This document shows, piece after piece, positions 8,703 through 61,540 of a stretch of 64,000 bases of DNA. Below the pieces are notes generated by a model that did no database searches, was not told the DNA's origin, and saw only the letters and a program-made list of their open reading frames with translations. Every line of letters starts with the position of its first letter. The first letter of the stretch is position 1. Origin of the DNA: Lutjanus erythropterus (lineage: Eukaryota; Chordata; Actinopteri; Lutjaniformes; Lutjanidae); the NCBI GenBank assembly GCA_020091685.1, contig CM034609.1, positions 20,037,204 to 20,101,203 of the forward strand. The letters run 5' to 3'. The translations under genes were made by a program, and so were the position numbers.

Positions 8703-8708
8703 TTTATT
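8703..8708 (-). terminator. slc44a2: Polyadenylation signal of slc44a2
   Basis: AATAAA on the minus strand (TTTATT on plus), 684 bases past the TAA of exon 22b. It gives a 3' UTR of about 0.7 kb made of AT-rich sequence. Assigned by position only. Confidence 0.5.
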
Positions 8709-9391
8709 TCAAAAACATTCTCAATTCAATTCCACAAACATAAAATAAGCACTGAAGTATAACCCTATACATCAATTACAATATAAACGTAGCTTTTGTT
8801 CTCATTCATAATCCTTCTTCAAAACGGCTTGCTGATAAAAGTTGTGACACAGATTGATGAGTAACAGTTTAATGGCTTTGGTAAGGAGGTTAAATATTTA
8901 TCCAAATATAATATGATTACACACTTAAAAAGCAACAAATACAAGGATAAAAGCATGAAGCAACAACTTTAATAGATTACATTTAAGCTTACCTTCATGT
9001 AACACTTAAAAAAAATAAAACATGCTAAAATTAAGATACATCTTTAATTTAAAAAAAAAAAATCCGACATACTAAAAATGTGTTTGGATATCAACCACAT
9101 TCAAAAAAGATATGAATAATCTCCAAATTGTTTAAAGCCACAGAGGTCTAAATTGCATACCAGACTGACAAACCAATGTCTGACTCATAATACACATGAA
9201 TGAGGTGTGGGAATGAAATATTTGGCAATAAGAAAACACAAATGAATGACACTACTAACTGTCACTTGTAGGCTCCTGGTGACTGACGGCATGAGGTTCC
9301 TGTCAAAGCCCGGTTCCACTGAATAAAACCAAAGTCACATTCAGCCCACAGTCACACCTCACTGGGGCTTGTTAGTGTTTCAGAAGGTGCT

Positions 9392-9498
9392 TTACTCTGC
9401 CGGCTGGGTCTTGTTCTTCTTATTCAGGACTTTGCGGAGGCTCTCAGGCATCAGGTAGGGCCTCTCTGCGCTGCCATCGTTCCTCTCAAGATCCTCCA
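9392..9498 (-). CDS. slc44a2: slc44a2 terminal exon 22b (main C-terminus)
   Basis: A 107-base exon completing the split codon T|TG (Leu) after exon 21, encoding [20 protein letters not shown] and ending ...[13 protein letters not shown]. The acceptor is strong (pyrimidine-rich, ctctttgcag). The tail length and its Lys/Asn-rich end match the usual CTL2 C-terminus, so this is probably the default last exon. Confidence 0.92.
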
Positions 9499-12400
9499 CT
9501 GCAAAGAGAATCAATAAAATGTCATTAAACTAAGTTAATTAGAGCCACAGTTTTTTTTTTTAATCTCAAACAGTTTGAGGCAAAGTTTTTTTCTTTTTTT
9601 TTTTGCAAAATACAGACATTCTGCAGCCTAAACAGACAAGGACTTTTAAATGAGTGTCAAGCTTCACAATTAATATTCATAACTCATAAATCTGGACGAC
9701 AAATTTAACAAACGTATGTAGCTTTAATCAACAGTTTAAACAACAAGACAATCACCAACAACATGCATCAATCTCAATAGTTTAAATTCCTTCGTTTTAT
9801 GCAGTGGAGACTTGTTGCCTCCATTACTGTTCATTTAACCAACTATACTAAAAAAGTACTGAAGGCAAAACTATGTTGCTTTACTGTAAAAACAAAAAAT
9901 AATCAAAGAAATACAGTACAAAGTACAAAGCAGCTAGCCTGAATGCACCTGTTATGGTTTAGTGCTAACAGAAATAAAAGTGCATTGGTAGTGCAGCGTA
10001 CTAAACAAACAGTACTGATGACCGCAAAAACTGTAAACAATTATGTACCCTTAAAATTTTAGGTCAAAGGTGCAAACAGACCAACATTAACACTGTAAAT
10101 TAGGCACATGAACGGCTTCAAGTTTCTATTGGTGAGTGGCAGTGGGAGGAACTATTAAAAGACTAAAACGGAGTTTAGAAATGTCAGATTACCTCAGAGG
10201 AAGCTGAAGATTCATACAATTTCCAGACATTTAGATGAGAAGGTTTTCCAATGTGTTCAAGAGAACCAAAAAAACAACTACAGTACCAACATTTCAAGCA
10301 CCATGTCATTAAAATTAAGGACAAACCTGGCTGTTAACGAGAGAAACTTTCTTAACTAATTAAAATAAAGAGTCCACCATTTCATAACCTTAATCACGCA
10401 ACAAATTAGCAATGTGCAGTATTCCTGTGCACATTTTAAAGCGCTCATTCATAGAGACATGTCCTTATGTACCACTCAACTGTGAATAAAGGAAACACTG
10501 AATCCCTGCTACTTTAAGGCATTATATTCTGTAGCTGTGCTTCAGTCTGCCTCTGTGAAATGAGTAGGTTGGATGCAAAGGAGAATTATCCAATGGACAA
10601 CAACAAAGTCCTTACTGTAACTTAAGATCTTCAACTTAAAAGATCTTTTTAATTATAGTCTTTAACTATAACAGTTAAAAAAAAAACTGATGACACTTGT
10701 AAACAGTGTCTTTTCCCACAAAGCCGCTCTTCTCTAAGCTGTGTCCTCCTGAGTCTCCTGTTTTTTCAACTGGATGTCTTCATTTTCCTGTAGCTGAGCA
10801 GTGGATGAAAACGGTTCCTCAGCCTTGTTCTTCCACAGAATCTCATGGAGGGTTGAGGACATGTAATAAGGCCTTGCGGCTGAGCCATCATTGCGCTCCA
10901 GATCTTCACCTTATTGCGTGTTTGTGTATTTGTATGTGTTAATGATGGAGCAGAAAATGTGTGTTGAAATCAAGGTAAGAAGGTGTTACAGGGTCAGTAG
11001 GAAGAAGAAAGGGAAGTGGTGAATTATGGGAAGTGAGAAAAAAAAGGGGGAGAGACAAAAAGAGAAAGACAGTCAAATAGCAAGCAAGCAAAGACTCCCA
11101 CAGGCATTTCAGATCCAGTTAACAATTCAACACCAAGCAGCAGAAATGTCCACATTAACATACTGTCAGCCACAGACTGTTATTTTGGAGTGTGGCACAC
11201 CAGATTCATGCAATTTGGAATTAGTGACAGCCCGACACCAAAAGCAATGTGAGACTTGAGGAGGCGAGGAGAGTTTTGATCTTCAATTTTACACTGAGCC
11301 CTTTTTCTTCAATGCAACATATCTGCAACACTTGTTTATCTTATGTAGAGTCCATCTGTCACTTGTGTGGACAATCTGGTTATACATTGAAGTCAACAAT
11401 GGCTGAGGAGGTGCTACTTACAGAAACAGAGGAAAAGAGTGTCTACACACATGGCGTACACACTGAAGAATCCATGAGCGATGAGGTAGGAGCCAATCAC
11501 CACAGTCTGGGGATGACGACAAGAACCATACACTCACATTTCATTCATAATGCACATATATACACCAACCCTGTCGTGTTTTTGATCAGATCATGTTTTT
11601 CCTGGATATAAAAAGGACCCTCAGACTCACCAGGATGGGTACCCAATAGTAGTGGAGATTGGGAGCTGTATCCTCAAAGGCCTTCACTCTCCCAGAGAAG
11701 AAAAAGAAGGCAAAGATCCCTGTGGAAGAAAGACCACAGAAAACTCACAATTTAATTCAAAGTCAAATCATGTTAAATTCTTGGTAGATAGCTGCTATGA
11801 CATATATGATAAAGTACTTTATTAACTGCAATCACCATAGACATCCATTGTATTTCAAGTGCTTTTTCCAGTTTGCTATCCACGTTGCTGCTGTAACACT
11901 GTCAATTTTCTTCAGATATATGCCAGATGCCACAAGTAGGTGGAGGTCAGAGAAAAAAAATACTGAGAACTGTCAATTATATGCCTTTCGATTCGATTAC
12001 TGAAAGCTAAAGCTCATTTCGATCAATTTTTGATCAAATATTGAAATAGTAACACACCTACTGTATTTACACTATATTACATTCACTGTATGCAGTAAAA
12101 ACTCCATTGATATTTCAAAATGTTCAGTGCTGCCAGCTGATTAAATATACATGAGCTCATTATGATGAGATGTATAATTTAAGAGTTATATTTTGCATTA
12201 AAGTCTATGGAGGCCCATGCGGTTCCAATGTATTTATGATATAGCACCTGCATACAGTACAAAATCTAGAGAAAACTTGTTCTATGCTACACAGTGACTG
12301 ACTGAATAAGCTCATTATGGTGACACAAATCACCAGTTTGTAATGCATACAGATATGATGTTGAGATGTTAGGTGGACACATTCAGATCAGTGTTTTCAT

Positions 12401-33300: not shown

Positions 33301-34215
33301 ACGGTGCCTGTAAAAAGTATTCACCCCCTTGGTTGTTTTCCCTTTTTTATTGCTTTTATAAATGTAATTGTGGTTGATATAATTTGGCTTTTCTGACACA
33401 AAAATTTACCCCCCCCAAAATTCTACAAAGTAATGTCAATTAATCAAACATACATAATGTGAAATAAGTGATGGCATAAATATTCAACCTCTTTAAAGTG
33501 ACAGACCTAATTCAACAGAGGTCCAGCCGTTTGGCGCTTGTACTTGCAGAGAATGTGTCTCAAGAGACTGTAGTAAAGACACCTGTGTCTGGAAGGTCCA
33601 GTCTTCCTGGCTACAATTACACCATAAAAACAAAAGACCACTCCAAGCAACTCAGAGAAAGTGTTATTGAAAAATATAAGTCGGGATGAAATAAAAAAAA
33701 AATCCCTGAACGTCACTGAAAGTCACTGAACATCCCCTGGAGTTCTGTTAAATCCATCATTAAGAAATGGAAGGAATATAGCACATGTGTAAATGTGCCT
33801 AGAGCAGGATGTCCTCACAAACTGAATGACCGTGCAAGAAGGAGACTAGTGACGGAGGCCGCCAAGACACCTATGACTACTCTGAAGGAGTTAAAAGCTT
33901 CAACAGCTGAGATGGGAGAAGTTCTACATACAACAACTGTTACCGGGTTCTTCGCCAGTCAAAGCTTTATGGGAGAGTGGCAAAGAGAAAACCACTGTTG
34001 AGGAAAGGTCCTTAAATCTTGTCTAGAGTTCACCCAGATGTATGTGGGAGACTCCATGGTCAGGTGGAAGAAGTTAATTGGTTTGATGAAACCAAAATGG
34101 AACTTTTTGGCCATCAGACTAGATGCTATTTTTGGCAGACACCAAACACTGCATATCACCACTGTACTGTACCACAATAGAACAAGTGGCGGTAGCTCAA
34201 GCCATCCTGGAGGTT
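33301..34215 (+). mobile_element. Truncated Tc1-like transposon
   Basis: Begins with a typical fish Tc1 terminus (GGTGCCTGTAAAAAGTATTC then CACCCCC). From 33498 it carries broken transposase pieces in plus orientation: SKQLRESVIEKYKSG (N-terminal DNA-binding part), a GCPHKLNDRARRRLVTEAAK-like block, and nucleotides encoding a W-F-D-E-T-K-like core near 34075. Several frameshifts separate the pieces. The C-terminal third and the right inverted repeat are missing, so it cannot move by itself. Confidence 0.75.
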
Positions 34216-39800: not shown

Positions 39801-42800
39801 TCATGTCATATTATAAATTAGGCTTTTTGTTACACATTTTAGCAAGAGCATTAATATGTTATATGTGTTTGTGGACTATTTGAAGGCAGCACAAAATAGC
39901 ACCACCAAAAAAAAGAGAAAACATTGTGATGTGTCTTATGAGGAAGATTAATATTGAGAGTTCATTTTATTGGTTGTCCTTAATTACCTGAATAATGATG
40001 ACATTAATTCTCTGTACTGTACACTGAAGCCACTGAAGAGTGTTTTCTTCAGTGATTTTCTGGTTTTAAATGTTTTTCCCTTCATCTAATATATTGTTTT
40101 ACATTTTTGTGTAATGTCTCTGTTTTTAAGACGTTCATGTCAGTAGTTGTCCACATGGTGGAGCTCTTCACAGTTAAAGCACTGAATGAAACTCAAAGTA
40201 CACAAGCAGTGGACTTGATTCATTTATTTATTTTTCAATTTCGTAACTTCATAGAAATAAATAAGTCTATTATGCCGTAGGTCCAAGATAAAAATAATAT
40301 TAAAAAATATCCACAGCACTGTGAGTTAATGAAGGTAAATCAATTCAGGTTCATTTGTATAGCAGCTTTCATTTACATATGCAGCTTCAGGCATTCACAC
40401 AAAGTGCTTCACATGGCAAAATTAAAACAACATGTACGGAAAACAAAAAAACTAAAAAAGAAGAAAAAAAATCACCAAGGATAAAAAATAATGTTAAACA
40501 AATGATGGAAGCATAGAAAAGATTATAACATTACTACATTATTCCCAATTAAAAATGAAGCCAGATTAAAAAGATAGGTCTTTAACTTTGCTTTTAAAAA
40601 TGCAGAACAGATTACAGTACATTTTCTGTAGTTGGTAAATACAGGTCTAACGTCACATACACACTCCCTTTGCTTTCACCTTCAGGATCACAAATTCCCC
40701 AGTGGCAGATATCGCTGTGGTCTGGGCCAAATGTGACGATGGGAAGATCCGCGGTTTCATCTTGGAACGTGGCATGAAGGGCCTCTCAACGCCTAAGATT
40801 GAAGGAAAGTTCTCCCTGCGGGCCTCCGCCACTGGGATGATCCTCATGGATGAGGTGGAGGTTCCTGAGGAGAACCTGCTACCGAACGCTGTTGGCCTCG
40901 GCGTGAGTGAAGTGAAACAATGAAGTTTCCAGATGTAGTAATGTGTTTACTAGACTTAAATAACTGTACCCCTTTACTCTGTTACATTCATGATATACTC
41001 CTATAACTTACTAACTCTGAGTCAGTGTGTTACAGTTTAAACAACACACAGCAGTAATTGCTCATCATTTTCCTTTTGCTGCCTCCAGGGTCCTTTTGGC
41101 TGCCTGAACAACGCTCGTTACGGGATTGCGTGGGGCGCTCTGGGTGCTGCAGAGTTCTGTTTCCATGCAGCTCGACAGTACACACTTGACAGGTCAGATG
41201 TTCAAATGGTCTGTCTAATGTCAGCTTTGGTGATACACACGTGTTGTTTCTGTGTTCAGTACTAGCCTCTGAGATTGATTATTTATTGATAAACACAAGG
41301 ATACCAGTGTTATTTGTTCTGTAACAGAAAACAGTTCGGTGTGCCATTGGCAAGGAATCAGCTGATGCAGAAGAAAATGGCTGACATGTTGACAGAGATC
41401 ACCATCGGCCTGCAGTCCTGTCTGCAGCTGGGAAGACTCATCGATGAGAAAAGGTAAAGACGACTTTATCCTCTAACTGAAGTGTATCAGATGAGGTGTG
41501 ACGTGGTGTTGGCACTAATGTTTCTCTCCATCGAACCACACTTGTCGGTCTCTCCTCTTCCTGTCAGGATGAAAAGGAAACAGTATTATCGCTTTGTGTC
41601 CTCAGCAGTGTTGTGGAACTGTTTAAGATTTCAAAATTCCCTTTCTAGAAGTTGTTAAGATATTTCAGTCTGCACTAAAGTGGTTGATGACAGACATTGC
41701 TGTCTCTAAGCCAGGCCATGTCAGCACTCATGACTCTGTTGTCATTTTGTAACGGTGCTTTAAAACTAATGCTCTCCGTCCACACAAACATTTTAGCACC
41801 ATTTAAGAAATAATCTGTGTCCATATTTACACACCTGGAAACATATATCTTATTACCACTCATGTACACAGGGTGTGCACATGCCCGTGTAAACAGGGTT
41901 GTTTAGTTGCAGAAAGTGGAAATAAAGAACAGCAATGACAAAAAATGAGACCAGAGATTTCTTTGCTTGGACCAATAATGAGATGGAACTGGAACAGGGT
42001 CAACAACATCTGCAATTTGCAATCCTTGTGGAATTAATTAAGGCTGATGTTTGTTTTCTTCTAGAAAGGTGTCATGTGATAGTGATGTGACAAATCAGGA
42101 CATGACATGATTGATTAGACCCAATCAGGATGCGAACATGGTGTGTTTCTACCTGTCCAGACTAAAATGGGGTCAGCATTGTTTCCAAAAGTTGTAGGGG
42201 TTTTAAGGGTTCTGAATCACTGGAATAGTGTGGATGCTAGAAGTAAACATAGCAAAAGTTCTGCGTTTTAAAAGGATAACGTATTGGTGTGGATTCAGCT
42301 TTAGACTAATGCAAAACAAATGTGGTGTGTTTCCTAACAGAGCAGCGCCAGAGATGATTTCCATGCTGAAGAGGAACAGCTGTGGTAAGGCCCTTGACAT
42401 TGCCAGGCAGGCCAGAGACATGCTGGGAGGAAACGGCATCGCGGATGAGTACCACATCATCCGCCACGTCATGAACCTGGAGGCTGTCAACACTTATGAA
42501 GGTGAGGCGGAGGAGTAGTTTAAGTAGTTTAAAACTGACTTTAGTTCCACATGAGACATTCATGTGCACACAGTAGATTTAAAGATACTAGTGTGTTTGA
42601 GTGATATTTTGACTGACTACAGATCTGTTACATTTATTTTAATGTTTCATGCTACTTTTTCTGAGAGAGTATATTAATCCAATAATCACCTGTGTCCCTT
42701 TTACACCTGAGTTGTACCTGTTGATCTTGTTTAATATTGTTGGTCTCCTCCTCCAGGTACTCATGATATCCACGCCCTGATCCTGGGCAGAGCCATCACA

Positions 42801-43823: not shown

Positions 43824-44408
43824 CACACCCCAATTCCAAAACAGTTGAGATGCCATGTGAAATGTAAATAAAACCAAATGCAATGATTTGCAAATCCTTT
43901 TCAACCTATAATCAGTTTGAATACAGTGCAAAGACATGATATTCAGTGTTCACACTGATTTACTTTATTGTTTTATGTAAATATACACTCATTCTGAATT
44001 TGATGTCGACAGCATGTTTCAAAAAAGTTGGGACAGGAACATGTTTACCACTGTGAAGTTTTAAAGGTTTTTGCTTGATATACGACTTCAGTGGTTCAAC
44101 AGTTGAGGGTCTCCATTGTCCTATTTTTATAATGAGCCACACATCATCAATAGGAGACGGGTCTGGACTGCAGGCAGGCCAATCAGGTACTGGAACTGTT
44201 TTACTACGTAGCCATGCTGTTATAACACCTGCAAAATATGTCTTCCTGAAACAAGCAGGGATGTCTCTGAAAAAGACGGATGGCAGCATATGTTGCTCTA
44301 AAACCTGTGTGGACCTTTCAGCATTAATGGGACCTTCATAGAGGTGTAGGTTACCCATGTTGCCATGGGCACTAACACACCCCCATACCATCACAGATGC
44401 TGGCTTTT
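43824..44408 (-). mobile_element. 3' half of a Tc1/mariner element
   Basis: The terminal inverted repeat at 43828-43900 (CCCCAATTCCAAAACAGTTG, CAATGATTTGCAAATCC) matches the element in slc44a2. On minus, an open stretch of 144 codons (43960-44394) keeps the C-terminal half of a DDE transposase: MVWGCVSAHGNMGNLHLYEG, TAWLRSK and DWPACSPDPSPIDDVW. The usual glutamate of the PIE motif is replaced by Asp, and small deletions are present. The 5' half of the element is missing, with an abrupt end near 44408. Confidence 0.8.
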
Positions 44409-45482
44409 GAAGTTAGCGCTGGTAACATTTTTTTGACAGTCTGCATCTCTTCTTCTTCATCAAAATGCATTTGTTTATCAGTTGTGTTTGTTTACTGACT
44501 AATAAACGCACATTTATAGTTTTTGTCTTAATGTAACAAAAAGCCACAGCAGATCTAATTAGATTTGACATCCACACACTCTGCTCTTACATACTCTCGC
44601 CATCTCTACCTCACTTCATGTCCTGGATAATTAATGAGAAGTGAACCCCACAAAATGTTCTCAGTGCTGAGCAGATAATCTCTGTTTTGTTTTGTTTTTG
44701 TTTTTTTGTTTTTCTCTCTCTTTTTAAATCCATCAGGGCTTGAGGGATGTGGGGGTGGGCAGCACTGCTGGACAGATAAAGACCTCCATCCTCTCCAGCT
44801 TCATTGCATGTCTGCCACTGCCACTTTGAATTGGAGGGAATTAAAGAACCAGCAAATCCCTGTCCGTACACGGTGCCCAGCCATGTTCTACATGGCGCTT
44901 ACATAAGGAAATTGCTTTTCCATTATTTATTTTTTTCTTTTTGACCAATGGCCTTTCATCTTTTGGGCATGTGTAGATGTGACTCACTGTGACTAATTGT
45001 ACCTCGAATGGACTGTGTGTTCTGTGTCCTCTCTGTTGGGGATGATGGAGGTTGGCATGACGGCTCCTTTGTGATCTCAACATGTCCCCTGATGTCTCTC
45101 TCACTCCCTCATCCAGACATTAGCAGGGGCGATGGCAGTTTAATACTCAGATAATTAGGAAGCTTTTCATCTATAATAATGATCTGGATTATAACATCAG
45201 TGAGTTAGAAGCTCTGTCAAAAGGAGTCACTGTCATGATTGGACTTTACACTCTCAACCGACAGTCTTTGAGAGCATTTAACAGGGACAAATATGCTAAT
45301 CGTCTGAGTACACCAAAATACAAGATTATCATTTGAGTTGAGATTTGTGGGTATGCATCGTACAACCACTGTGCAACAGGTTACAGCACGTCTTCACCTC
45401 AAATTGAGGGCTTAAAGAATGCTGATCATTTGATCATAACTTTCTGGTTTTCTGTGATACTGCAACAAAAACAAAACATTTC

Positions 45483-46675: not shown

Positions 46676-46855
46676 TGAGATGTTTGCAATCTGCAAACTC
46701 ATGTTGTTGGCCTCGTGTGTGTCAGCAGCAGGTGTGGTCACAAAGAGGCAGAAAACTTAAGCTTGTGTTCAGCTGAACTGCAGGATTTATTCTGTGGGGT
46801 TTTAAATTCCCCCCAAGATCTATGTACAAATTTTAACCAAATTTAACTTCTTCTT

Positions 46856-46857
<2 letters not shown>

Positions 46858-46917
<60 letters not shown>
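46858..46917. repeat. (TTA)n microsatellite
   Basis: About 19 to 20 uninterrupted TTA units. On minus it reads as a poly-Asn open frame that is not a gene. Confidence 0.95.
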
Positions 46918-46919
<2 letters not shown>

Positions 46920-47412
46920 TTTAGCAATGAAGAGTGCCATAGTCCCATAATGAACTCTAATATCGTCCCAATGACTTTTAACATCTCTTTAATGGCATTT
47001 CTATACATATACTGCAGTTGTAAACACTTAGACTGATTTTTTTTGACAGTTTTTAACCCTTCACACTCTCCATATTTATGTCTTGTATACACACATTTTA
47101 CTCCTTTACATTCAGCACCAGATACCACTAAATCTTTTTATTTTATTTTATTTTTTTTAACTTTTTAATACCTTTAAGACCTGTGTGATCGATTGTTACA
47201 CCTGATAATCTGGTCCAAACTAGTTTGTTGTGCGGTTATACTGTACTGTACTGTGAAGTCGTGTGTTCATGACCCGTTATAACGCTGCACTCCTCACATC
47301 AAGGAAACTCTCAACAACTTGGATCAGCGCGAATAGCTCTTGATTGATTTTCTACGAGACGACTTCTCGGTAACTTGAAGGCATTAGGCTCGACGACAGC
47401 AGCCTGTAAGCC

Positions 47413-54235: not shown

Positions 54236-57200
54236 CCTTTCCAGCGACAGCCCCCAGGCAATAACTGACACGTCCTCAGGCAGACCCATGGGCAGCAGCA
54301 TCTCTGGTCTGAAGACCCCCGAGTTTCCCACTTCCACCCATTTTTTTAGTCCTGTGTGTGCGCAAAGAGAAATGACACACAAATGACACAAACCAAAACC
54401 ACAAAACAGAACTGTTCTACAAAAGGCAGAGAGCCGTAACTAGGTGGCATAACCTCACCAAACTACATGAATTCACCCAGAGTCAAAAGCCAAGATGGAA
54501 AAACTGTGAAGTTATGATTTGTGGAGCTGGTTATCATTAAAGGGAATTAACAAGATGTCAATTCATAAAAGTGAATATTTTTTCCTTGAAAGGAAATAGA
54601 TAAGTAAATTTAATTTTGGCTTTAACTAAAGGTAACTGTGGTTCTCTCAAAGCAAGCTTTCAAATGATACAGACTTTAAAAAGTCAGATTTAGGTTTTAA
54701 CTCGTGTTGCCTTTTGTCTTTGTGGGGCAGAGAAAAGATATTTTATTTGTTTCTTAGGCATATCACCCCCCTATTTACTGTATTAATTTTCTAGCACCTA
54801 GCAAAAAACAATGAAAAGCCATTAGATGATTGAAACTGTAGCATACACTGACAAAAAAAACTGTAGTCAGTTAAATAACAGAGCGTCAGTGGTAGTAAAT
54901 TATCTAGAGCAGTTGAACTGTACCTTCATGGTAGCTGAACACTTCCATGCTGGGCTCTGTGTAGGGGTTGTAGGCAGGCTTGAAGCGGAGTTTGGTAATT
55001 CCTGGAAAAGAAACAGCAAAGGCTGGATTTATGTGGCTTGATAAACACATCTAACGGCAACAACAATCAGAAAAACTTGTGTAAAAACACTGCAGAAAAT
55101 ATTATTCGCAGGTATATGGTAGCTGCCTGTTTTGCACAAATGCAGTGTTTAAGACTTAAGAATTCACAGCTAGAGCGAGCGAGAGCGTTTCAACTTTGGC
55201 CACATTATGAAGGCCATGAAGTTTTTAATGCACATTTATCAAATCATGTTCACAATATCATGGAGTCCTGCTGACCTAGTTTAGTGAAGAACTGGTGCAG
55301 GATGCCCATGAGATCTCCCAGTGTGAGTCCGTAGTCGGCCACCACGCCCTCTATCTGGTGGAACTCGGCCAGGTGGGTGGCGTCTAAGGTCTCGTTCCTG
55401 AACACCCGGTCAATGGAGAAATACTTGACGGGGGTGAACTTCTCCTGGTGGATGGTTTGACATGTGTGGGTGACGAGACAGAGAGCAAGAAGAGCTTCAT
55501 GGTCAGTGACAGTACAGGCATAGCACATACACTGTATGATCAAAAGTATATAGACACCTCAACTAGAGAGTCACTTTGAGATTTGAGAAACAGCGATCAC
55601 ATTCTCCACCGTTTTCTGACAGTTTGCATGTCTATAGGTCCTGCACAAACAGGTCCTGCTGGTTTTATCACAAAAATGAGCTGAAACCTTCAAATACTAC
55701 GACATAAAAAAAAAACTGAATATGTGTGTGTGAAACTCACCTGTTGTGCAAGTTTATACAACATGCGTGCGCTGACTGCTGTAGTGTGAGTGCGGAGGAT
55801 GTTTTTCTGAGCCTCCTCTATCTTCCAGTCGTACTTGTATCTGACAGACAGCAAGATATCAGAGCACGTTGTCACAGGCTTCGTTTAAAGTTCATTAATG
55901 TTACCTGTGATCTGAATGTGTGATTATGTCTCACCCCTGTGAACCAAAGCCTCCCTCTGAGTGGACCTTCTTCACCCTCTCCAGGTAGTCCTGCGGGAAC
56001 TCGTGAGCGAGTGCTGGGTCTGGACAACGACATTTGCAATTAACGAACATCAGAAATGACTGAGAGCGACAGCACTGAGACAGAGAAATGTTTGACACGC
56101 ACCAGACAGGAAGAAGGTGTCGTGCTGGTCTCTGGCCGGGTGCTGCTGGGGCTGGAACAGGGAGTCAAAGTTCCAGAAAGAGCTCTCTATGAAGTTGTTG
56201 GTCGGCATCTCTGTGAAGCTACAGAAAGCAGAGAGTTGATTTTATGTGTTTTTTATATGTGGGGAAACGGCTTCTTTCACTGTGATGTTTACAGCAACTC
56301 ACCCCATCTCCAGGAAGATCTGCCTGAACTGTGTTCGCACCTTCAACAGCGGGTGCAGGTGGCCACAGTCGGGGGCAACGCCCAGGGCCTCAAAGTTGTA
56401 GGGCTTGAATTTCTTCTCCTTCCAGCTGCCACTGAAACGCAACACAAGCAGGCCTTAAAACGAGCAGTCAAGAGGAGTCTGAAGACTGAAGCTTTCACTT
56501 ATGCTGTACCAATTAACAACAGCATCCTGACTTCTTCATTAGTCAGCAAGTTTTCCACAATCAGGTAACAAAGACATAGTATTTCTGCCAATTCATTTAA
56601 TTCATCTGCAGCTTAGATAATCGAGAACATCAAATCTGTCATGAACAGTTTCAGAGCAGAGAAGTAAAAGCTGCATCAATTTGAATTTTGGGCATAGAAA
56701 GAAAAGAACATCTGGATGCTGCTTTTAGCTAAATCCTCTCTACGATATGATTACATGCAAACCTGAGACCAGGCATCATTTTAATGCCTTATCCTCATGA
56801 AAACTGTATAAGCTGTATTATGAGCTCGCCCATTATTTATTTATTTATTTATCCTTATTTTTTATTTCAAAGGATCTCACAGAAACAGCGAGTAATACAG
56901 GGTGCCTAAAAGTTTCATTAACATACATTATGTGAGTTTTGAAGGAAAGAAAGTAAGATAAAGAAGGAAAATCAGTTTTGTCAATGAAATATATTAGAAA
57001 TTAGCAGTTACTTTGGATGACTTCTGATCAGAAAAGCAAAATAAAGATGTACAACTGGTTATTAGATAACAGAATTTCAGCGATTTGAATCGTTTTGTTC
57101 TGCCCTGCCTTTAGGACAAAGCCCTCGTCTTTGGACTCATCCCCTTTTATGGGCAGACGTCTCTCTGTGTCCCCTGTCTGAGGTCCTGCACCCCGTCACT

Positions 57201-60200
57201 GACAGACAGAGGAGGGCAGATGGGACACATTTTACAGTCTTATTAAGCAGAATACATGAAACATACTTTAAATGAGACTGAAAGGGCGGCAACTGTACTC
57301 ACTTGGCAATCATCTCAGGAGTGAGCTCCGTCTCCTGTTTAGTGATGGTGGTGCTGAAGGAACTGCCCTTAGAGATCCAGTATGACTTCACCGTCCTAAA
57401 CACAGAAAAAAACATGGGAGGACAGGAAAAGACATAAGTGGCTTAGTGTTAAATGTGATCCTCTTCATATACCTGACTTTTACATTACAAAGTAAAGGAC
57501 TAGAAAGATTTTTCTAACTTGTTGATTCAGCTGTATTGTAGTGTTTAGTGGTGCTGTATTTAAATGAATGACAGTGTTTCTAATATCTTTTAACATGAAC
57601 ATGAAAGACATTGAAGAAACACGTGACATGTTTGGTGACTTAATAAACCTCAGCTCAGCTAGTGTTTTATGCTCGGTGGTGAATATCTCCTGATAATAGA
57701 GAAAGATGCTCAGTTAGATCAGCTTAGTACTTCCGACATCTCGCTTCCAGTTTATGTAAGATTGCTCTCTGAGTAAGAGGATTTGATCATAACCTTGGTA
57801 ACAATCCAGAGGATATTTCAGTGAGTTATCTAAAATGTCCTCGTCCATGTGCACTCTAATTTAAAGGTTATTCATTAGTTTTGCATCAACATACTGACCA
57901 ACTGTTCCCGTGACATTTTATCCAACAGATAGTTTATCTGCAAGGTGTCATTCATTTATGCAGATTGCAGGATATCTAAACGACAGACAAGTTCAGGACA
58001 ATCTGTGGTAGCTAAGAAAAAAACTCACAGAGAAGGACTAGTCAGGAGAGGATGTGATATTTTGATTTATTTTTTTAAATATTTTTTAGAACCTTAATTT
58101 ACCCACTCCTGGAGCTTTTGGGTGTCTCAGCAGCATGTCACATGTAGCTACAGCTCTCAGTTTAATCTGCTAGCTATTTTAATTTAAGTGTTTGAGTCAA
58201 ATATAAGACTGTGTTACAAGCATGCAACATGCAAACTGGTAAAGAGCTACATAATGACTGCTGGCAACAGGAACAGGATGCATCAAAACAATTACAATTT
58301 GTTCCCAGCAGACTATTCAATGAAACTGTTGTTAGATAGGGACCGTTTGAAATATAATTCCAACCTCATGCTGCCTTGTGACCACAACAAAGCTTCTACT
58401 GCCACCTACTGGTGGACAAAGGTACACAATCAACATTGACTGTGTTTATAAAGTGTTTGGGGACTTACACTTCAGAGAGCAGTTTTCTCTTCTTCAGCTC
58501 GTTCTTTTCTTTCTCGTCCAGCTGAGTTGTGTCGCCCTGCTTAACAAGAAGCAGCTTCTCTCTGACCTGGTCTTCGATGCTCTCCACCTGAGGATCAACA
58601 CGTAACCACACATACGCACCTCGTTTAGAACAGGACTTCAGATCACACAGAGCCATGATAACAGGCTGACGTAAACTTGACACATACGGTCCTGAATATC
58701 CTCGGGCCGCCCTCGTGTGCCTTGTCCACTCTGATCCACTTGTTGGACATGGCTTTGCTGAAGCCGATCTTCCCAAAGGATAGTTTCTGCACAGGGGCAA
58801 ACACAGAGGGAGCAGCAATGTCACTGAATATAATAAATAATATCATACAAGATAGCAAAAATGTAGAAATACAACAGTCTCTGCTGTCCACTCTGTGTTT
58901 ATATCACTAAAAAAAGCATTGAAGAGCAAATGCAACACAACATATTAAATAAATTCATGCATAAAAGTCAGAAGTGATGCACAGTTTGTCCATGCTTTAC
59001 TTAGGTCAATACCTTGTGCTGTAAAACAAAAAGAGTAGGATTAATTTTCAGTGAATGTGAATGTTCCCCACTTCTTTTCTTATATTTTCCTTTATTATAG
59101 ATGTTATGTATTCACTTGATGAACTTGAAAGACCTTTTAACCACTGGCTAAGAGGTTTTAGTCTGTTCTATATTGTAATTGTATGTTTGGTGTATAGATT
59201 ACAAAAATACCATTTTATTATATTCATTAAAGGTACTGCACGCATCATTTTTCAGTCTGATAAGTTAACTGAAGTAAAAACAGTCAGTGGATGTTGTTTT
59301 CTGTTTAACTGTTACCCAACAATGCATTTTCCAAATGTACACGTTCACTGGGCAAAATAAGAAAACTGATGATGAGAGTTTTTTCCTTTGTTCTCTACAA
59401 ATTCATTGGGATGACAGCTCTTACCACGGGCAATTAAATTTATAGAGTTGATTAAATATGATTTGGTGCTTCCTCACATGGCCAATGTTGAGCAATCGTC
59501 GCAAACGGCAACTCCAATGTTTGTTTCAATTCAGATGCTTAAAAAAAAAAACACACACCGCTGTCATACTTGCATAACATGCCCATAATTAAAGTGTCAT
59601 CACAATGGGGAGTAATCTCAGCTTCATTTAGTTATCAAAAATTATTGTGATTAATGTTCTGTAAATCAACCAATGGATTAATTGACTGATTTACTGCTCA
59701 ACATCAATTATTCCCTCATGACAGGGGTATTCAAAACTGGGGTTCTGGGGACTAAAAGAGGTCCTTTAATGGGTATGGGGGGCCCCAAGCAATTCATAGA
59801 AAACCTGTGATATACTTGGGGAGCTATTGAAAGAGCAGCTATCCTTCCTCTCTGTGTTTATATCAGGATGAAAGTTCCCACCAGTTTCATTATGTCAGTT
59901 TCAGTCCTGCAGGTAAAGTGCCGCTGTGGACTGCAGACCTGACCGGTCCACCTGTAACACTCACCATGAGCTCACTCTGTGCCAGACCCTCCAGCGGGAT
60001 GGAGCCGAACACCCGGGCTTCATGGCTGCCCTGCTCGGCTATCTCCGTGCCCTCCGCCGTCAGCTCCCAGTGCTTGGAGGACCGCAGCTCGGCAGAGATT
60101 ATCTGAGCAGCAAAAAAAGACACGCACCGTAAATATTCATCCTAACTGCGTTTTACTTTAATACATGTCACACAGTGCTGAGCCTGTCTGTTTGACAGTT

Positions 60201-60451
60201 CTCATCTCTTTAAACTCGACGTCCTGATTGCATCAGTCACACTCAATGAACACTGTTGACGGTGACAGACTGACTTCCGCTGCCGCTCAGTCCGGGACAC
60301 TCACGTCTCCGAGGGCCTGCAGACTCTTCACGGCTCCGACGATGACCTGGTGGTCCACCTCGAGGCTGTTCGCCACTTGCAGGCTGTCCACGCCATCGTC
60401 CACCTTCTCAATCCGACGGAGAAGCGTCTCCACCACACCGGTGTCCGCCAT
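52819..60451 (-). CDS. farsa: Phenylalanine--tRNA ligase alpha subunit, cytosolic
   Basis: Catalytic alpha subunit of the cytosolic (alpha-beta)2 phenylalanyl-tRNA synthetase, which charges tRNA-Phe. Exons in gene order: 60305-60451, 59965-60102, 58688-58786, 58469-58587, 57303-57395, 56303-56431, 56103-56218, 55935-56019, 55741-55840, 55276-55444, 54924-55001, 54237-54351, 52819-52924. All are in phase, giving 497 residues (human about 508). The N-terminal half holds the winged-helix tRNA-binding modules ([37 protein letters not shown]). Class II catalytic motif 2 is [19 protein letters not shown] from about residue 357, and motif 3 is [14 protein letters not shown] from about 458. ATG 60451 gives [11 protein letters not shown], aligning with the known start. 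The small beta-subunit partner is not encoded here. No defect was seen. Confidence 0.97.
53726..53845. mobile_element. Miniature Tc1-type element (MITE) in farsa intron 12
   Basis: About 115 bp bounded by CCCCAATTCCAAAAAAGTT on the left and, reverse-complemented on the right, ATCCCAATTCCAAAGAAG. These are the same termini as the Tc1 copies at 18465 and 43824, with no coding sequence left between them. Confidence 0.6.
54192..54230. repeat. (TG)n/(CA)n microsatellite beside a farsa splice donor
   Basis: About 19 TG units on plus, CA on the farsa strand. Exon 12 ends at 54237 and the donor is gtgaaa (54236-54231), so the CA run begins at intron position +7. Confidence 0.95.
55537..55640. repeat. 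Dispersed repeat fragment in farsa intron 9
   Basis: ACTGTATGATCAAAAGTATA-TAGACACC resembles the terminus of a frequent teleost DNA-transposon family, usually reading ACTATATGGACAAAAGTATT. Only a fragment is present. Confidence 0.35.
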
Positions 60452-60559
60452 GCTGTAGCCCTGCGAAGACCGAGAGAGACCGGAGGTGACGTAGCGTTCC
60501 AAAAGGCCGAATGTATTAGAGTAGAGAGACGTCAAAAGGAGTACCGTAAATACTGTAAT

Positions 60560-61540
60560 ACTGTTTAAGTCTGCTGAATAGCCCATATAAGAATATTATA
60601 TTGGATTGTTATATTAGGATTATTTAGTCATCATATCATTAATATTTAAATATGTTGCAGTTGGTAAAATTGGGCAAATTTTATACATATGTTTACTATG
60701 TAGGTGTTAGTCCATCCATCCATACAATATTTGCCTGTTGTGGTGAAAACACTTCCCACATTTTGTTTTAGGCTCCAAAATATACCAATTTATATATAAC
60801 CAAAGTATTATAAGGAATGGGATAATGACCCCCGAAAATTTATATGGGAAGATAAAAATACCAAGAGTGAAATAAAAAAATATGAAGTTGTTGAAACACT
60901 GTGGAGGGTTGACATTGGCAGATCTGAGGAGATACTTTTATAATTCTCAGATTAAACACTTAATGATGTGGATGAGTTACACAGAAGATCTGAGGAATTG
61001 AAATTAATTAGCAAAATCACTGGGTTCAATAGTATTCAGTGGAAATAAGAACATTTTTGGTTGTTAAACTTGGAGAAGGCTTTGAAAGTTAATGAACATA
61101 AAGGAAGTTGAAATGATTTATTTAAAGGAAATTTCAGGAGATCCAGACGTGAAACCAAATGCAACAGTAGCTTTAATTCATGGGCTAAAATAGACTGTTT
61201 TTTGCAATTTTTCCCTGAATATGAGATTAATTCTTTTGAAAATAGTTCAAAATGTTATAACATACAAACTAATCAGTTTTATAGATATGGATAAGACATA
61301 CAGAATATTCAGATACTTCTTGACCCCTGAATTTATTTTTGAATATAAATTTAAGCTCTCAGCAATGCAAATTATTTACATATTTTTATATTTATGCAAA
61401 TTATTAAATATATTTTAGTTAGAAGTTTTTTAACTTTATAAAAGGTTTATTTAGAAAAATGGTCAACCAGGTTGTTAATTTCTCAGTTTATATTAATAGT
61501 ATCGTAAGAACACATACCTGATATTTGAATCAAAACTGGA
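60560..61540. other. Intergenic stretch between farsa and ilf3
   Basis: Very AT-rich. Patches such as GGAAGATAAAAATACCAAGA and AAATAGACTGTTTTTTGCAA look like old reverse-transcriptase LINE debris, but no frame is long enough to name. CpG-bearing DNA at 60450-60540 is the likely farsa promoter side. Confidence 0.35.

Follow-up and report, generated by a model that had tools for sequence, protein, structure and literature searches.

Two described systems lie closest to the locus analysed here. The first is the class of exons spliced through distant branch points, recognised by an AG exclusion zone that spans no fewer than 100-150 nt upstream of the acceptor and, towards its 5′ end, contains a branch-point consensus with an adjacent pyrimidine tract. 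According to Gooding et al. (2006, PMC1431707), zones of at least 150 nt precede 165 of 67,334 human exons, and between half and a fifth of all zones of at least 100 nt were estimated to reflect distant branch points; the exons for which such a branch point is known from experiment are described there as all being alternatively spliced, with PTB regulation for the small group that was analysed experimentally. Silencers lying between the tract and the AG have been reported to be either CA-rich (binding hnRNP L) or G tracts (binding hnRNP H/F), and among G-tract introns of zebrafish, branch-point motifs that lie farther away are reported to accompany a larger share of alternative exons (88% vs 78%) (PMC4320613, PMC6339879).

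The second system is the mammalian SLC44A2 gene itself. In human, exon 22 of transcript ENST00000380614 (104 bp) was reported by Sohail et al. (2014, PMC4320613) as a minor inclusion isoform in HeLa cells, the inclusion of which rises on knockdown of hnRNP H/F. A G tract adjoins the AG of its 3′ splice site; the paper scores this tract as shared by other mammals and by marsupials but missing from birds, reptiles and fish. In mouse, Table 1 of PMC5063418 gives for Slc44a2 a 128-nt cassette, with an 85-nt exon 449 nt upstream and, as its downstream partner, an exon of 1348 nt that we judge from its size to be the last. Depletion of SMN is listed there as increasing the skipping of the cassette (delta psi of -0.54 with a Bayes factor of 17.84); in the text consulted, this event is not one of those confirmed by PCR. 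Other isoforms in the family are mentioned more briefly: a C-terminal isoform of CTL2, and two splice variants of CTL1/SLC44A1 that differ in their C-terminal peptide, are both cited in PMC4320306, while the SLC44A2 isoforms P1 and P2 are discussed in PMC9994479 and PMC4636594, in the available text of which the term "C-terminal" is absent. A validated SLC44A2 splicing event in PMC6498542 concerns the 5′ end, if its primers are read correctly here. Among the matches listed for open-licence papers, no title dealt with an alternative last exon of fish slc44a2.

The gene and its two tail exons

The window (that is, the whole 64-kb stretch of DNA that was analysed) contains a complete gene of slc44a2 type on the minus strand, its coding sequence running from 24559 to 9392. 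The gene model has 21 shared exons with GT-AG borders, all junctions being in phase, and ends in either of two tail exons, giving a protein of 729 aa with exon 22a or of 706 aa with exon 22b; both ends are open. As judged from its translation, the gene is a member of the SLC44 (choline transporter-like) family: the Choline_transpo profile (PF04515) is matched over its full length (1-326) with 396.7 bits against a cut-off of 26.9 (E 1e-118), and structures of CTL1 match the protein with E 2.9e-74 in an alignment that reaches the start of the tail. When the 706-aa protein was compared with the PDB, three distinct sequences were found at E ≤0.001, namely CTL1 (two) and PNS1, with no CTL2 structure among them, and the end of exon 21 together with the 22b tail found two CTL1 entries at E ~0.09. 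The name slc44a2, in preference to slc44a4 or slc44a5, is a putative assignment that follows the human proteins and the earlier note on this DNA. The exons on which the argument turns are as follows (here and below, a slash marks an exon border).

11422 to 11506, minus strand: exon 21, 85 nt, with a phase-1 donor (TTTCT/gtaagt) common to both tails
10734 to 10909, minus strand: coding part of exon 22a, starting ag/GTGAAG at 10909; 58 codons including the stop, which ends at 10734
9392 to 9498, minus strand: coding part of exon 22b, starting cag/TGGAGG at 9498; 35 codons including the stop, which ends at 9392

Exon 21 contributes one base of the junction codon, and from there both 22a and 22b are open to their stops, so that the proposal of an earlier note on this DNA, that two open tail exons share one phase-1 donor, is borne out by the gene model. 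That note also described nearly identical starts followed by divergence, and a terminal exon that had been duplicated; both descriptions hold. The two tails are identical at 18 of 32 residues (BLASTP, E 8e-11 for this pair), and of their first 14 codons 13 encode the same residue, with nine of the 13 nucleotide differences in this stretch falling at third positions, a pattern not to be expected of chance similarity. The proportion of synonymous differences far exceeds that of non-synonymous ones, both in the first 14 codons (pS 0.91, pN 0.13; a small count, with 9.7 synonymous sites) and over 27 codons (pS 0.80, pN 0.28; likewise small, with 18.2 synonymous sites), and dS between the two is saturated. 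The flanks of the two exons show no notable DNA similarity (best blastn piece E 0.04). Saturated synonymous sites, low pN and dissimilar flanks together suggest that the duplication is old and that the starts of the tails have been kept as protein; the pair thus looks like an old exon duplication, the first part of which has been constrained at the protein level.

How far along 22a this constraint extends is a separate matter. The comparison supports a protein-level constraint over about 27-32 codons, and to that extent the selection on 22a proposed previously is upheld, but it does not extend to the last 27 codons, which show no coding signal relative to intron sequence (0.0 bits per codon, a score equalled by 8% of 3000 stop-free intron segments). 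These distal codons are open and have no independent coding support. Such a lack of coding bias is what one would look for if 22a were a dying duplicate, i.e. an old last exon that has lost its working splice site and fallen out of use. Set against this are the frame, which is intact over 57 codons (a length reached by chance in 3.4% of 20,000 sampled intronic frames), and the retention of the start as protein in spite of saturated synonymous sites, which argues for constraint over much of the exon's history.

The two tails differ in character. From residue 16 onwards 22a is acidic (four K/R, nine D/E) and 22b basic (five K/R, two D/E), and after the sequence LFLCF, next to the last membrane segment, 22a has an additional Cys where 22b has Leu. 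Inspection of both tails by eye for sorting motifs gave nothing notable. The sequence MSSTL, taken for a family motif in the earlier note, would agree with mammalian SLC44A2.

Some further observations on the gene and its surroundings may be recorded here. The donor of exon 13 is very weak (ACTGCTGT/gtatcc, score -0.8, window 15591-15590, minus strand), and the acceptor of exon 14 is poor (score -4.4, window 14457, minus strand), with another AG 8 nt upstream. Elsewhere in the window, exons of an acyl-CoA dehydrogenase lie at 40651-42515 on the plus strand (by Pfam, the match to the middle domain being under the curated cut-off; by eye this is glutaryl-CoA dehydrogenase), and exons of the phenylalanyl-tRNA synthetase alpha subunit at 55253-60595 on the minus strand (tRNA-synt_2d and PheRS_DBD1). 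A remnant resembling a Sleeping Beauty/Tc1-type transposase is present at 33720-33998 (plus strand; Pfam matches under the curated cut-offs), a transposase-like ORF with no Pfam match at 43963-44412 (minus strand), and at 46823-47137 (minus strand) an ORF that encodes an extended stretch of Asn, which is a trinucleotide microsatellite. A tRNA scan of the window found no tRNA.

The acceptor of exon 22a

The sequence upstream of 22a contains the following features, which are listed from the 5′ side.

10912 to 11094, minus strand: AG exclusion zone of 22a, 183 nt, ending at the 22a acceptor
11073, minus strand: A of ATTTGAC (YNYURAY with one mismatch), a candidate distant branch point at -164 relative to 22a; followed by 37 pyrimidines in 40
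11033 to 11072, minus strand: polypyrimidine tract, 37 of 40 pyrimidines, with PTB-like motifs UCUU, UCUCU and CUUUC
10994, minus strand: A of a perfect UACUGAC, the second branch-point candidate, at -85 relative to 22a; followed by 28 pyrimidines in 40
10918 to 10964, minus strand: CA-rich stretch with an hnRNP L-like motif, a presumed site of protein binding
10939 (position -30), minus strand: near candidate branch-point A in CATTAAC, a perfect match to YNYURAY, followed by 15 pyrimidines in 40

The AG exclusion zone is the most conspicuous of these. At 183 nt it is the longest AG-free run on either strand of the window, and of the 8086 AGs there (4193 and 3893 on the two strands) none but the 22a acceptor has an AG-free interval of at least 150 nt before it. 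At the other 21 acceptors of the gene the corresponding zones measure 12-90 nt if AGs within about the last 12 nt are ignored, that of 22b being a conventional 29 nt. When intron 21 was shuffled with its dinucleotides preserved, the last AG was preceded by an equally long AG-free run in one of 2000 cases. Shuffling the whole minus strand in the same way produced an equally long run somewhere in three of 200 cases, and in another 60 whole-strand shuffles the longest AG-free run was 208 nt.

The composition of the zone calls for some caution, as it is poor in G (11 of 183), shuffling of its own bases leaves it without AG in 6.6% of cases, and the run without GG is about as long (185 nt). It could be, then, that the zone is a by-product of low-complexity, G-poor sequence and that the branch point lies near the exon, for which the perfect CATTAAC with its A at -30 would be well placed; this would alter the mechanism proposed below rather than bear on whether 22a is used. 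Against such an account stand the exact termination of the longest AG-free run in 64 kb at the acceptor and the few pyrimidines after the A at -30, 15 in 40 as compared with 37 in 40 for the distal candidate. We regard this explanation as rather unlikely, but one to be kept in mind.

Candidate branch points with at most one mismatch number 11 within the zone. In the 200 nt upstream of 22a, UCUU occurs six times (expected 1.47), UCUCU twice (0.41), CUUUC twice (0.38) and ACACA four times (0.27); the expectations are taken from introns 1-20, and the figures are raw counts, overlapping copies included, that carry no measure of significance.

An assessment confined to the immediate vicinity of the acceptor gives a different impression. 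Pyrimidines make up only nine of the 22 positions from -25 to -4, and for this interval the statement in the earlier note that the acceptor has almost no pyrimidine tract is correct; it overlooks the distal tract at 11072-11033, where 37 of 40 positions are pyrimidines. In a local acceptor model, trained on the gene's own acceptors, 22a scores -5.8, the lowest of the 22, and 80 of the 105 other AGs scored between exon 21 and 22b outrank it. The score of this model was considered as possible support for 22a and was rejected, as it tells against 22a by ranking that acceptor last of the 22. As a separate observation, an acceptor-like site at window 10787 (minus strand), inside the 22a tail, scores 8.6, second only to 22b among the 106 AGs; joined to exon 21 it would give a stop in the junction codon.

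The lowest local score of the gene is also what a dying duplicate might show, and the earlier note had suggested on similar grounds that use of the 22a acceptor may be fading. That suggestion finds no support here, in spite of the score, for the anatomy is of the distant-branch-point type; with the distal tract and the branch-point candidates all lying within an AG-free zone, the acceptor was misjudged. Use restricted to certain tissues, which that note likewise suggested, may still apply. In an unused exon, moreover, the long AG-free zone and its tract would be expected to decay. Taken with the evidence from the reading frame given above, this leaves the dying duplicate as a quite improbable account of 22a.

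The comparison with the described class can be made point by point. The zone, at 183 nt, exceeds the 100-150 nt by which such exons are recognised, and a consensus near its 5′ end (ATTTGAC, at -164) is adjacent to a tract (37 of 40). In these respects 22a resembles tropomyosin exon 3, PTB exon 11 and GABBR1 exon 23, for which zones of at least 150 nt, with tract and consensus towards the 5′ end, are described in PMC1431707; it differs from them in that both its branch point and its alternative use are predicted. Since the class is enriched in alternative splicing, the layout points to regulated splicing of 22a. The wording "terminal exon" is absent from the main text of PMC1431707, so that to find this layout at a tail exon may be out of the ordinary for the class.

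The 3′ end of exon 22a

Whether 22a would be a true last exon depends on the sequence beyond its stop, where the following are found, together with the corresponding signals of 22b.

10648 to 10653, minus strand: ATTAAA, candidate polyadenylation signal of 22a, beginning 81 nt past the stop
10615 to 10616, minus strand: donor-like site ACA/GTAAGG, score 5.2, 37 nt beyond the first base of the ATTAAA
about 10608 to 10595, minus strand: U/GU-rich stretch after the 22a ATTAAA
8703 to 9048, minus strand: candidate polyadenylation signals of 22b (ATTAAA at 9048, 8973 and 8873; AATAAA at 8708)

The donor-like site at 10616 raises the alternative that 22a is a cassette, spliced onwards into 22b, the main effect of which is to lower the amount of mRNA by nonsense-mediated decay. 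If this donor were used 22a would be internal, with 118 nt between its stop and the junction, and the mammalian exons, at 104 nt in human and 128 nt in mouse as reported, are of a size usual for internal exons. The score of 5.2 is below the median of the gene's own donors (8.4), though above the weakest of them (-0.8), and the ATTAAA that starts 37 nt before the site, with a GU-rich stretch after it, favours an end at this point instead; in addition, the constraint on the first 27 codons argues for a tail that is translated. A cassette acting chiefly through decay is therefore thought unlikely. More broadly, the sequence is compatible both with 22a as a last exon and with 22a as a cassette that bears a stop. 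The earlier description of 22a and 22b as mutually exclusive last exons can be retained for the protein tails, which are indeed alternatives, but is putative for the RNA, in view of the donor-like site at 10616 and the internal size of the mammalian exons.

Relation to the mammalian exon and a proposed mode of splicing

Exon 22a sits between an 85-nt exon 21 and exon 22b. The mouse cassette also follows an exon of 85 nt, and the gap that separates the two is 449 nt in the mouse and 512 nt here; the cassette runs on to a further exon, whereas 22a, in which the stop is reached after 176 nt, may terminate at a poly(A) site. Human exon 22 shares with 22a its rank, a comparable size and its optional status (predicted in the case of 22a), the comparison with human covering its rank and its length of 104 bp. 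On the basis of rank, size and neighbouring exon, 22a is probably the counterpart of the optional exon of human and mouse, it being understood that the lengths differ (128 nt in mouse, 104 nt in human, 176 nt to the stop in 22a). Given that an optional exon has been published for mammals, an alternative tail is probably a known kind of variation at the SLC44A2 locus. The paralogue CTL1/SLC44A1, with splice variants that differ at the C-terminus, offers a parallel to 22a/22b at the level of the protein.

The two optional exons part company in the sequence upstream of the acceptor, where human has its G tract and 22a an AG-free zone of 183 nt that contains the distal tract and a CA-rich spacer.

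Taking the evidence together, the reading preferred here, and one held to be likely, is that 22a is a real, old and regulated alternative C-terminal exon of slc44a2, probably at the place of human and mouse exon 22, that is spliced through a distant branch point across a repressed spacer. The mechanism, comprising a distal branch point, repressors on the spacer and choice of the first AG, is one that we infer from the anatomy of the intron. In it, the first step of splicing would take place at the distant branch point, either the A at 11073 or that at 10994, while U2AF occupies the distal tract; the spliceosome would then pick the first AG downstream, at 10911/10910. The spacer would be occupied by repressors, PTB-like on the tract and hnRNP L-like on the CA-rich stretch, such that in most cells 22a would be skipped and 22b used, yielding the ordinary 706-aa protein. 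Where the repression is lifted 22a would be joined, and a tail with a juxtamembrane Cys and an acidic distal part would replace the basic tail of 22b; the resulting mRNA would either stop at the ATTAAA or continue into the last exon.

If a regulated 22a is accepted, a further and more tentative suggestion can be made, for which the chances seem to us somewhat short of even. The same optional exon may have persisted ever since fish and mammals shared an ancestor, its means of repression having meanwhile been replaced, with a distant branch point and pyrimidine-rich and CA-rich elements standing in the fish where a G tract with hnRNP H/F stands in mammals; weak inclusion would then have been conserved, and the means of achieving it not. 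What may be new is a distant branch point that does duty where human has the G tract.

Implications

The locus may thus represent an old alternative tail, the splicing control of which has turned over between lineages, and as such it would provide a testable case. It may also bear on how splice sites are predicted, in that the lowest rank among 22 acceptors in a local model may have gone to one of the distant-branch-point type, which such models overlook. The role of the SLC44 family in choline transport is itself disputed (PMC13160678). For those who work on SLC44 proteins, what is offered here is the possibility of another tail, which would gain a juxtamembrane cysteine and have a distal part of opposite charge.
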